Source: Patescibacteria group bacterium (GTDB lineage: Bacteria > Patescibacteriota > Minisyncoccia > Phycocordibacterales > UBA2100). Taken from it: a DNA stretch of 32,848 nucleotides. The notes beneath the pieces are model-generated. The model did not search any database. It saw nothing but the letters and a program-made list of their open reading frames with translations, and was not told the DNA's origin. The stretch lies in contig JANLHO010000049.1 of NCBI GenBank assembly GCA_024654485.1, positions 1 through 32,848 on the forward strand, in the 5' to 3' direction. Positions 4,001 to 22,194 of the stretch are shown one piece after another. The position numbers and the translations under genes are program-made. Numbering within the stretch: position 1 is the stretch's first letter; each line of letters begins with the position of its first letter.

Positions 4001-4096
4001 ACGCGAAACTATACGGTATGCAGCGCAATAGCCAAAACATCAATGGAGTATGCGGGCAAAATCTGCTCCGGCAATGCTTAGGTGTACAATACGCCC

Positions 4097-4375
4097 ATGA
4101 AGCACATCAGCGCACACATCAAAAGGTCATCCGAGAGGTCGCGGCAGACGGAGCGCGGAGAGCTTATGCGCTACTTTGTGGAGAAGCTCAATGCAGGCCG
4201 CGAGCAGGACGGCCTTCCGCCGATATCAATGGGCCGCATGGGGAAGATGCTTGAGAAGATACCCACCAAAGACCTCTACTATATAAAAAGCGTATGCGAC
4301 GAAGCAAAAAATTTCTCCAAGAAATTTTGGTGGTTATTAAATCCTGACAAGTACGATAAGGGAAAGAAGTCTTGA
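4097..4375 (+). CDS. Hypothetical protein (92 aa)
   Basis: ORF MKHISAHIKRSSERSRQTERGELM...FWWLLNPDKYDKGKKS; TACAAT box 6 nt before ATG; tail duplicated downstream. Confidence 0.6.
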   Translation: MKHISAHIKRSSERSRQTERGELMRYFVEKLNAGREQDGLPPISMGRMGKMLEKIPTKDLYYIKSVCDEAKNFSKKFWWLLNPDKYDKGKKS

Positions 4376-4445
4376 TCGTTCCACTCGTCAACATGCAATG
4401 AGTCTCGCCCCGTAGCTCCGCCAAAGGCGGATGGTACCGGGGTAT

Positions 4446-4484
4446 CTATTGAACCCCGAGAAGTACGAGAAGGATAAAAAATAA
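4446..4484 (+). pseudogene. Displaced second copy of the C-terminal tail of the 4097-4375 gene
   Basis: cta ttg aac ccc gag aag tac gag aag gat aaa aaa taa = LLNPEKYEKDKK*, versus LLNPDKYDKGKKS* at the end of the upstream gene. Confidence 0.75.
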
Positions 4485-4587
4485 ACAATGTCGCCCCGTC
4501 TCGTAGACGGGGGCAGGAACCGCGCCAGTTATACGTTCGCGTCGCGGCTTTGTCAAAGTGCGCACAGCGGATACAATGCCCTGACCC

Positions 4588-18911: not shown

Positions 18912-18956
18912 TAGTGAGGAACGAAAATGGAAGCTTGCTTTCATTTTCTCCGAACG
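18912..18956 (-). repeat. 45-nt hairpin repeat abutting the tRNA-Ala(CGC) 5' end
   Basis: Reverse complement is 44/45 identical to 20110-20154, which abuts the tRNA-Pro(GGG) 5' end. Confidence 0.9.
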
Positions 18957-18986
18957 ACGGGTTTATATCGTGAGATATAAGCCCGT
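18957..18986. repeat. Hairpin carrying GGGCTTATA, the first 9 nt of tRNA-Ala(CGC)
   Basis: acgggtttatatc-gtga-gatataagcccgt. Confidence 0.75.
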
Positions 18987-19018
18987 GCGCAGAAATATAC
19001 CAGATACGGGAGCCGCGC

Positions 19019-19670: not shown

Positions 19671-19752
19671 CCCGCCTTCGCCGTTTTCGGCGGAGTGCGG
19701 CGCGAGTCCACCATTTGGCCGGTAGTGCGCACGCCGGTTTCGGAGGCTCTGT

Positions 19753-20027
19753 CGGGCTGTAGTATACCTCGGTAGCACAACGCTTCGCGTTGGCTACGGG
19801 GCAAGCCGGTAGTACTTTACAAGACGTGGCGTGAGTGGGGGGTTCTTTTGCCGGGGTGTAGTATACCGGTAGTACGCACGCTTCGGGTGCGTGTAGACCG
19901 GGTTCGATTCCCGGCACCCCGACAAAAGAACCCCGCTATCGTGCGTACAGTCTTCAGTAGTACAGAGGGTTCGACCTGTGCTCCGTAGGCAAACGAAGTT
20001 TGTCCTTCGGGGTTCCCGGCAGCCCGA
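19753..20027 (+). pseudogene. Broken tRNA-Pro: 5' and 3' parts separated, with palindromic inserts in the D- and T-loops
   Basis: CGGGCTGTAGTATACC [19769-19806] CGGTAGTAC ... GGGTTCGA [19975-20012] TTCCCGGCAGCCCGA; flanks match tRNA-Pro(GGG) at 20155. Confidence 0.75.
19852..19922 (+). tRNA. tRNA-Pro(CGG)
   Basis: CGGGGTG/CACCCCG acceptor (C1:G72), anticodon loop TTCGGGT, T-arm CCGGGTTCGATTCCCGG; flanked by ggggttcttttg / caaaagaacccc. Confidence 0.93.
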
Positions 20028-20081
20028 CAGAGCCTCTGAGAAAGTATTTATGCGGTGCAGAATCATTTTCGTTCCTCACTA

Positions 20082-20107
20082 CGGGCTGTAAGCAAGCTTT
20101 CAGCCCG
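20082..20107. repeat. Acceptor-stem minihelix CGGGCTG-TAAGCAAGCTTT-CAGCCCG
   Basis: Starts with nt 1-9 of tRNA-Pro(GGG) (CGGGCTGTA) and closes with its acceptor complement. Confidence 0.75.
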
Positions 20108-20109
20108 GG

Positions 20110-20154
20110 CGTTCGGAGAAAATGAAAGCAAGCTTCCATTTTCGCTCCTCACTA
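20110..20154 (+). repeat. 45-nt hairpin repeat abutting the tRNA-Pro(GGG) 5' end
   Basis: cgttcggagaaaatgaaagcaagcttccattttcgctcctcacta; see 18912-18956. Confidence 0.9.
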
Positions 20155-20225
20155 CGGGCTGTAGTATACCGGTAGTACGCACGCATGGGGTGCGTGTAGA
20201 CCGGGTTCGATTCCCGGCAGCCCGA
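20155..20225 (+). tRNA. tRNA-Pro(GGG)
   Basis: CGGGCTG/CAGCCCG acceptor, anticodon stem-loop CACGC-ATGGGGT-GCGTG, intact T-arm. Confidence 0.92.
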
Positions 20226-20261: not shown

Positions 20262-20296
20262 CCCCACACCAGCTTTGCCGCAAAGTTGGTGTGGGG
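20262..20296. repeat. Palindrome of the CCCCRCACCA family just before the prs promoter
   Basis: CCCCACACCAGCTTTGCCGCAAAGTTGGTGTGGGG; compensatory variant of 5629-5658. Confidence 0.8.
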
Positions 20297-21394: not shown

Positions 21395-21467
21395 CAAGAT
21401 ATCGTTTGCCTCTGCTGGCTACAAGCTGTAAGCTACAAGCTATCCTAGGGCCTATAGTATAGCGGTA

Positions 21468-21503
21468 CCCGCCCGAACGACTGACGTCGTTCAGTCGGGC
21501 GGG
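21468..21503. mobile_element. 36-nt palindromic element in the D-loop of the broken tRNA-Ala copy
   Basis: cccgcccgaacgactgacgtcgttcagtcgggcggg. Confidence 0.7.
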
Positions 21504-21514
21504 GAACGCCTCCA

Positions 21515-21546
21515 CCCGCCCGAACGTACCGTTCGGTACGGGCGGG
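21515..21546. mobile_element. 32-nt palindromic element in the anticodon loop of the broken tRNA-Ala copy
   Basis: cccgcccgaacgtaccgttcggtacgggcggg; same ends (CCCGCCCGAACG...CGGGCGGG) as 21468-21503. Confidence 0.7.
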
Positions 21547-21550
21547 TGGC

Positions 21551-21805
21551 ATGGTGGAGCCTATGGTATACACAGTCTACGTCTTGAAGGACGATCTAAA
21601 CAGGTTGTATAAGGGTATGACGAAGAATCTCTCTGGCCGTATCGCTCAACACAAGAATGGCCATACGATAACCACAGCAAAAATGAAGAATTTGCGCGTT
21701 GCATATACCGAGGAATTTGATAACTTTGAGGGCGCAAGGAAGCGCGAATTGTATTTCAAATCTGCAGCGGGCAGGCGTTTTCTGAAGAAAAAACTGGGCC
21801 TATAG
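21551..21805 (+). CDS. Small GIY-YIG nuclease domain protein (UPF0213/YhbQ-like); start may be 21563
   Basis: MVYTVYVLKDDLNRLYKGMTKNLSGRIAQHKNGHTITT... ; the stop codon TAG lies inside tRNA-Ala(GGC). Confidence 0.88.
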   Translation: MVEPMVYTVYVLKDDLNRLYKGMTKNLSGRIAQHKNGHTITTAKMKNLRVAYTEEFDNFEGARKRELYFKSAAGRRFLKKKLGL

Positions 21806-21866
21806 TATAGCGGTAGAACGCCTCCATGGCATGGAGGAGGTCGGGGTTCGACTCCCCGTAGGTCCA
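21796..21866 (+). tRNA. tRNA-Ala(GGC)
   Basis: GGGCCTA/TAGGTCC acceptor with G3:U70; CCTCC-ATGGCAT-GGAGG anticodon arm; intact T-arm. Confidence 0.93.
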
Positions 21867-22194
21867 CAAAAATAAGGAGAACATCCCGAAGCGATTAATC
21901 TTCGCACGCGGCGCGTGCGTGGTGGCTTTGTACTCTGCCTCACGATTCGACTTCGTGCCGACTCTCTCGGGCGCGCGAGTACGCCACGCCCTCGGCCCCC
22001 GCCCCGCCGCCAATCCTCTCCGCCAAAGGCGGACAGGCATTCTCATCTATTTCGCGGGGGGATTTGAAAAAAGGAATGGGCGGCAGGAGGCAGGGTCGGC
22101 TTCCATTCTCGAAAATTAAATTCTAGATTCGGTGTCTAACACGGGGCCCACTATTAGTGACGAATGTGATATATAAAGTATAATGACACCCCAT

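Follow-up and report, generated by a model that had tools for sequence, protein, structure and literature searches.

A Broken tRNA-Pro Gene Enclosing an Intact tRNA-Pro in Patescibacteria, One Case of a Pattern of Palindrome-Scarred Gene Ends That Suggests a Little-Known Kind of Mobile DNA

Introduction

How did an intact tRNA-Pro(CGG) gene come to lie inside the remains of another tRNA-Pro gene, the D-loop and T-loop of which are each occupied by a palindrome? This question is raised by positions 19753-20027 of the window, i.e., the whole stretch of 32,848 nucleotides that was analysed, which is the entire contig C60 of a draft genome (820 kb, 97.7% complete, 60 contigs; G000 in the comparisons). 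The genome beyond the window was covered by searches and by selected stretches. The genome is one of Ca. Kaiserbacteria (Patescibacteria), and related loci that bear names belong nearly all to the same group. The locus had been described before in a sequence-only reading, and the fate of its claims is given below together with the results that bear on them.

The tRNA-Pro Locus

The gene order at the locus is tRNA-Val, tRNA-Pro(CGG), tRNA-Pro(GGG), ribose-phosphate pyrophosphokinase, tRNA-Arg and tRNA-Ala(GGC), and the order of the tRNA and pyrophosphokinase genes is retained in many relatives. The stretch 19753-20027 is a tRNA-Pro relic with one palindrome in the D-loop, one in the T-loop and the intact tRNA-Pro(CGG) at the anticodon loop (Table 1). 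Its left part consists of CGGGCTGTAGTATA, a 39-nt insert (19767-19805) and CCGGTAGTAC, and its right part of GGGTTCGA, a 38-nt insert (19975-20012) and TTCCCGGCAGCCCGA. When the inserts were omitted, the flanks matched tRNA-Pro(GGG) at 20155 in 24/25 and 23/23 nt. The broken tRNA-Pro, the palindromes in its two loops, the intact gene between its halves and the degenerate anticodon arm, as given in the sequence-only reading, were all borne out. That reading had assigned 38 nt to both inserts, which is correct for the T-loop and one nucleotide short for the D-loop, and had taken the inserts to be related. They are only weakly alike: R1, a covariance model built on the D-loop element, gave 66.7 bits for that element and 8.2 bits, on the opposite strand, for the T-loop insert.

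Table 1. Coordinates of the features in the window.
Feature	Position	Strand	Basis or remark
Protein gene with new 3' end (LLNPDKYDKGKKS, then stop)	4082..4375	+	Gene beside one of the nine R1 copies in the window genome
Second R1-family palindrome of the window	4403..4443	-	R1, 29.9 bits
Old 3' end remnant of gene 4082..4375 (LNPEKYEKDKK, then stop)	4444..4485, approximate limits	+	Anchored score 53
Old tRNA-Pro 5' leader arm, pairs with 20028-20039	19740..19752	+	Inverted repeat I3; covarying pairing in genus
Old tRNA-Pro 5' remnant, acceptor to D-loop	19753..19766	+	Identical to tRNA-Pro(GGG)
39-nt palindromic element, D-loop	19767..19805	+	Model R1, 66.7 bits
5' remnant continued, CCGGTAGTAC	19806..19815	+	Identical to tRNA-Pro(GGG)
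Nested tRNA cassette leader arm	19839..19851	+	Inverted repeat I4, other arm at 19923-19934
Intact nested tRNA-Pro(CGG), replacement allele	19852..19922	+	ARAGORN; Rfam 57.3 bits
Nested tRNA cassette trailer arm	19923..19934	+	Inverted repeat I4
Old tRNA-Pro 3' remnant, T-stem/loop part	19965..19974	+	Comparison with tRNA-Pro(GGG)
38-nt T-loop palindrome, orientation opposite to and weakly similar to D-loop element	19975..20012	-	Model R1, 8.2 bits
Old tRNA-Pro 3' remnant, T-stem to acceptor	20013..20027	+	Identical to tRNA-Pro(GGG)
Old tRNA-Pro 3' trailer arm	20028..20039	+	Inverted repeat I3
tRNA-Ala 5' remnant, palindromes at D-loop (21468-21503) and anticodon loop (21515-21546)	21448..21559	+	
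GIY-YIG nuclease ORF, stop codon inside intact tRNA-Ala	21563..21805	+	PF01541, E 1.1e-10
Intact tRNA-Ala(GGC) behind GIY-YIG ORF	21796..21867	+	ARAGORN, Rfam

The only tRNA genes called at the locus by ARAGORN and Rfam were the nested tRNA-Pro(CGG) at 19852-19922 and tRNA-Pro(GGG) at 20155, and tRNA was the sole Rfam family that matched the window or ten neighbouring loci. ARAGORN found no tRNA in the relic after omission of the inserts and the nested gene, and therefore the old copy is dead. The earlier hint that the inserts might be spliced out is not supported by this result; function is carried by the nested gene. A separate tRNA-Pro(TGG), the presence of which had been left as a question, was located on contig C1.

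The stretch 19735-20045 folds far more stably than its shuffles, with z values of -8.9 as DNA and -11.5 as RNA. Beyond the acceptor stem of the relic, 19740-19752 and 20028-20039 form a leader/trailer helix, and the nested tRNA has one too. The leader/trailer pairing of tRNA-Pro(CGG) was conserved and covarying across 29 tRNA-Pro loci of the genus (0/5000 permutations), and in the genus loci the duplex of a leader with its own trailer had -13.8 kcal/mol, compared with -6.4 kcal/mol when permuted. Since the helix is an ordinary trait of tRNA-Pro(CGG) in the genus, the outer copy appears to be a dead gene, the tRNA-Pro(CGG) that formerly served at this locus.

Nested tRNA Genes in Relatives

A tRNA-Pro(CGG) nested in the remains of another was found at the syntenic locus of five species (G000, G012, G021, G060, and G050), and the junction, where readable, is the anticodon loop (G012, G021, and the 3' side in G000). 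The inner gene is identical at 71/71 positions in G000, G012, G021, and G060, in all of which it is nested, while un-nested alleles differ. The empty site is provided by the sister species G001, in which an un-nested gene has the outer flanks of G012, with GGAATCCTGCGT before and CAGAGGATTTCA after it. The earlier concern that the flanks might prove unrelated to tRNA-Pro in relatives is answered by these loci, as relatives have the nested locus and one has the uninterrupted gene. Compared with G000 and G012, the inner and outer gene of G021 have exchanged leader types, suggesting that more than one event took place. The same layout was found for tRNA-Arg in G005 (L024/L158), where the 39-nt palindrome of the tRNA-Pro D-loop again lies close to the D-loop, a further palindrome lies close to the T-arm, and the enclosed tRNA-Arg is intact.

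As a separate observation, a tRNA-Ala(CGC) in G006 (L144) is nested in another tRNA-Ala(CGC), and a long inverted repeat surrounds the inner gene.

The 39-nt Palindrome Family

Copies of the R1 family were detected in 37/52 genomes of the genus, with nine copies in the window genome, and in 23/117 genomes sampled from the order. The unit, mostly 39 nt long (CCCCGGTACCAC...GGCTACGGGGCAGG), is inserted cleanly, with an A on the left side in 89% of the copies. Most copies split a truncated copy of a gene end, the distance from the palindrome to the complete gene is 11-25 nt, and the orientation is constant in that the palindrome always turns the same side to the remnant. With the palindrome omitted, an anchored match, i.e., agreement of the remnant and the intact gene that starts at the first codon or reaches the last one, revealed conserved gene-end remnants at 47 of the 73 copies, compared with 2.2% of permuted pairs; the association was reached in 0/2000 permutations. 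An unanchored control at random positions was too noisy for duplicates at low scores, and the permutation and anchored tests were used instead. All nine copies in the window genome lie in gene-end remnants; for eight of them this rests on the anchored or tRNA criteria, for L068 on a looser match. The genes that are hit include typA, smpB, epimerases, rnhA, dnaE, and several ribosomal proteins, the names being based on motif reading and not on full annotation. The sequence-only reading had not noted that the tRNA-Pro relic belongs to a process at work throughout the genus, by which the ends of many protein genes are affected as well, for example that at 4082-4485 in the window.

Old and Rewritten Gene Ends

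The remnants are 6-21 codons long. In 36 clear pairs of old and new ends, 128 codons were identical, 217 synonymous, and 98 non-synonymous. At third positions the new ends had a GC content of 0.39, compared with 0.63 for the gene body (p 3e-8), whereas the remnants, with 0.57, did not differ from the body (p 0.21). It follows from this codon composition, shared by remnant and body but not by the new end, that the old end is the native one and that the new end is of foreign origin or has been rewritten. Synonymous codons rich in AT mark the new end of the intact gene across a stretch about as long as the remnant; they cover the duplicated codons and about five more. This AT-rich stretch is longer where the remnant is longer: the value for codons 11-15 was 0.71 with short and 0.42 with long remnants (p 0.001; about 0.04 by stratified permutation). 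Here as in the other tests, independence is incomplete, because the compared loci are related by descent; the genomes are drafts and the remnants short. A permuted boundary contrast with fixed 4-codon windows was uninformative, and the split and stratified tests were used in its place.

The arrangement at typA was found in five genomes, at three positions, and the typA genes of G000 and G067 carry two different palindromes at precisely the same site. The typA remnant was nearer to the codons of the genus than the new end in 5/5 genomes, and the new ends contained CAT-GTN-GAT-CAT in 5/5, compared with 1/25 genomes without a remnant. Insertion sites recur at one codon across different species, and the recurrent target sites lie in conserved sequence (typA, smpB, and the tRNA anticodon loop); at the tRNA-Pro locus the site is empty in the non-carrier G001.

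Several other sources of these structures were considered and rejected. Recent tandem duplication would not account for both ends, as codons for the same residue were identical in 107 cases, compared with 118 expected from independent draws. Composition bias of start regions does not explain the AT-rich ends, because the remnants are gene starts too, yet they are native, and 3' ends behave alike. A tRNA-targeting element of the tyrosine-integrase type was discarded as well: the 275-nt locus has no room for an integrase, and in the protein-gene cases the old and new ends are not identical, as att repeats would be, but differ at most synonymous codons.

GIY-YIG Nucleases and Their Palindromic Arms

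The tRNA-Pro locus had been regarded as a second instance beside the tRNA-Ala case of the window, with another palindrome family, and this assignment stands. The layout of the tRNA-Ala case, in which a remnant is followed by a GIY-YIG ORF and an intact tRNA, was also found for tRNA-Ser in the window genome (L015) and in G004 (L127), and for tRNA-Ala in G060 (L195). In the set of the 77 best-scoring GIY-YIG ORFs, 23 were located between inverted-repeat arms, compared with 0.8% of permuted pairs, and 18 lay within 200 nt of a tRNA or tmRNA. The encoded proteins are single-domain, of 80-100 aa, and keep the usual residues of the catalytic motif.

The arms of the GIY-YIG elements L118, L122, and L192 resemble ORF-less hairpins of the window genome; arms of the type CCCGCACACTAACTTTG...CAAAGTTAGTGTGCGGG nearly duplicate these hairpins, e.g., that at 20262-20296 of the window. 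Similarly, the typA variants of the 39-nt family in G008 and G052 (CCCCATTAGA...TCTAACGGGG) resemble the GIY-YIG arms CCCGTTAGAGAT...ATCTCTAACGGG. Because of these resemblances, it is suggested that the palindromes may be ORF-less relatives of the GIY-YIG elements. No GIY-YIG ORF was found inside the copies of the 39-nt family that were read or in the tRNA-Pro locus, and no endonuclease ORF lies between the remnant and the new end at tRNA-Pro or at most protein genes. The autonomous GIY-YIG elements are mostly located at start codons, with direct repeats of 4-5 nt, and not deep in remnants, which counts against GIY-YIG nucleases as the driver. Genomes with more palindromes tend only weakly to have more GIY-YIG ORFs (rho 0.36, p 0.009, without correction for kinship).

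Further observations concern individual GIY-YIG elements. L119, L135, L192, L193, and L211 are inserted at start codons and flanked on either side by TATG or ATGAA, which restores the start codon. In G045 (L125), a GIY-YIG ORF with palindromic arms is located in the 5' part of the 16S rRNA gene. In G000 and G005 (L071, L073, L129, and L012), smpB with a palindrome-split 5' remnant, tmRNA, and a GIY-YIG ORF occur within about 1.2 kb.

Other Hairpin Elements Near tRNA Genes

The blocks at 20064-20154 (+), upstream of tRNA-Pro(GGG), and 18912-18990 (-), upstream of tRNA-Ala(CGC), each consist of a 9-nt tRNA 5' remnant, its antisense and a common hairpin block (CGTTCGGAGAAAATG...CATTTTCGTTCCTCACTA) that ends at the intact tRNA and is also present in L153 and L020. 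They are a further class of elements with 5' remnants. Structured elements of 100-180 nt lie between an intact tRNA and a 3' tRNA remnant in L141, L147, L153, L158, L161, and L022; they start with an antisense copy of the T-arm, have the conserved core CGCCGGAaCGATGCC...GTGAGGCGGTGcCCAGaCC...GAGtCGAGGGAGAT, and matched no Rfam family at the gathering threshold. A GIY-YIG version of this element seems to be present in L109. The hairpin GTATACCCCCACACCAACTTTG...CAAAGTTGGTGTGGGGGTATAC at 20262-20296 of the window immediately precedes the start of the pyrophosphokinase gene and recurs at other places in the genome (L004, L006); its arms have the likeness to those of L118, L122, and L192 noted above.

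Proposed Mechanism

The pattern of a broken old end, a palindrome and a rewritten new end, present in dozens of tRNA and protein genes, points to mobile DNA of a kind that is barely known. We lean, with modest confidence, towards intron-less homing-like elements that break conserved sites in genes and tRNAs and leave behind a rescued allele and a palindrome-scarred remnant. Judged from the sequences, small GIY-YIG nucleases in palindromic arms would be the likeliest driver, and intron-less homing, as the most economical model, is what we infer as their mode of spread. The fuller proposal, for which our confidence falls somewhat below even, is a class of break-and-rescue selfish DNA in Patescibacteria: a small nuclease attacks essential genes and tRNAs at conserved sites, and the spreading allele combines a palindrome-split remnant with a synonymously recoded, resistant copy of the attacked stretch only.

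The steps may be envisaged as follows. A GIY-YIG nuclease would cut a conserved site in a tRNA or at the end of a protein gene, and repair would copy in an allele in which this site is split by a palindrome, sometimes one that encloses the nuclease ORF. The same allele would resupply the damaged part of the gene in a recoded form, which the nuclease no longer targets. In a long gene one end would be replaced; for a tRNA the whole gene would be supplied and both old halves would remain. The nuclease ORF would be lost later, and the palindrome, the remnant and the rescued gene would persist. At the tRNA-Pro locus, the old tRNA-Pro(CGG) would have been opened at the anticodon loop, an entire replacement tRNA-Pro(CGG), which brought along a leader/trailer helix, would have been installed, and mobile palindromes would have entered the D- and T-loops of the old gene.

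Alternative Explanations

REP/RAYT and Rickettsia palindromic elements are short and numerous palindromes, some of which lie in frame inside genes; the palindromes described here differ from them in being tied to gene-end remnants and recoded ends. The alternative that survives best, although we hold it to be unlikely, is that REP-like palindromes were moved by Y1 (HUH) transposases into many places and were tolerated only in dead gene ends of separate origin. Y1_Tnp (RAYT-like) genes, which could move hairpins, are present in 46/52 genomes of the genus, with two in the window genome. The 39-nt element has a GTAG/CTAC foot, and this foot, the clean insertion without target duplication and the A on the left side are as in IS200/IS605 and REP; moreover, in G005 (L095) a palindrome copy seems, as read by eye, to be in frame within an otherwise open dnaG reading frame. 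However, this explanation accounts neither for the location of most copies in gene-end remnants beside recoded ends, nor for two unrelated palindromes at one typA site, nor for the GIY-YIG and tRNA cases, and the copy number of palindromes does not track that of Y1 genes (rho 0.21, p 0.14).

Less probable again is homology-assisted illegitimate recombination with DNA acquired from relatives, in which ends would be replaced and remnants left without any nuclease, and palindromes would accumulate later in the dead remnant. The foreign codon composition and the saturated synonymous differences of the new ends fit this explanation, and transfer is implied by the nested tRNA allele, which four species share without any difference. 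It is opposed by the rewriting, which stops about where the remnant stops, by the recurrence of insertion sites at one codon in different species, and by the fixed and short distance between hairpin and junction (about 11-25 nt).

It is very improbable that selection has kept the nested inverted repeats as an RNA scaffold which aids processing of the inner tRNA. The conserved and covarying leader/trailer pairing across the genus would agree with such a role, but the helix is equally present in un-nested loci, so that the relic is not needed, and there is no such role in the protein-gene cases. A functional outer tRNA, split or intron-bearing, that is freed of its palindromes and of the nested gene, is scarcely credible: the perfect acceptor stem, the retained leader/trailer helix and the very stable fold speak for it, but the anticodon arm is lost, the negative ARAGORN result holds without the inserts, and the nested gene together with the separate GGG and TGG genes covers the proline codons. 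Finally, an assembly artefact, conceivable in a 60-contig assembly, or chance decay of a pseudo-tRNA has a negligible probability, since the locus structure recurs in independently assembled genomes and the permutation tests exclude chance for the palindrome family.

Comparison With Known Systems

The nearest published precedent for the break and rescue by homing-like elements favoured here is the fungal mitochondrial mORF (mobile ORF) gene hybrid. Such hybrids were described for atp6 of Allomyces and for atp6, atp9, cox2, and nad3 of Glomus; an endonuclease element is located in the gene, a foreign gene end takes over and the native end becomes a remnant, and in the atp9 case the enzyme is of the GIY-YIG type (PMC3630166). 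A foreign gene end that replaces the native end, with the native remnant kept, was found in the present genes, and in both systems the foreign end is the functional one. The present case differs in that it is bacterial, comprises dozens of genes, and affects 5' as well as 3' ends and whole tRNAs; a short palindrome is found at the junction, the replaced stretch is 6-21 codons, and the ORF is usually absent.

In phage T4, according to the portions of the source used here, Seg and Mob are free-standing homing endonucleases that act by intronless homing, SegB being located in the tRNA region (PMC2988022). On that basis the likeness lies in stand-alone GIY-YIG genes beside conserved genes or tRNAs and in intron-free spread; those portions describe no palindromic arms, gene-end remnants or recoded ends for the T4 nucleases. 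In the rRNA genes of CPR bacteria, GIY-YIG proteins were reported only in insertions other than group I/II introns, and many further insertions were short (<200 bp) and uncharacterised, most of them at the top or base of stem-loops (PMC11270868). The GIY-YIG element with arms in the 16S gene at L125 is similar to these. That paper deals with rRNA genes only, and the terms "palindrome," "inverted repeat," and "tRNA gene" are absent from its text. No description of bacterial palindromic gene-end replacements was found in searches of an open-access library.

Implications

If this reading is true, tiny mobile elements have repeatedly overwritten the ends of the most conserved genes and tRNAs in a bacterial lineage with very small genomes, and the scars can still be read. 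The many short GIY-YIG ORFs and palindromes of Patescibacteria would then have a role, and some of the uncharacterised short insertions in their RNA genes would be accounted for. There would also be a warning for annotation, since in genomes of this kind gene starts and tRNA calls are open to misreading.
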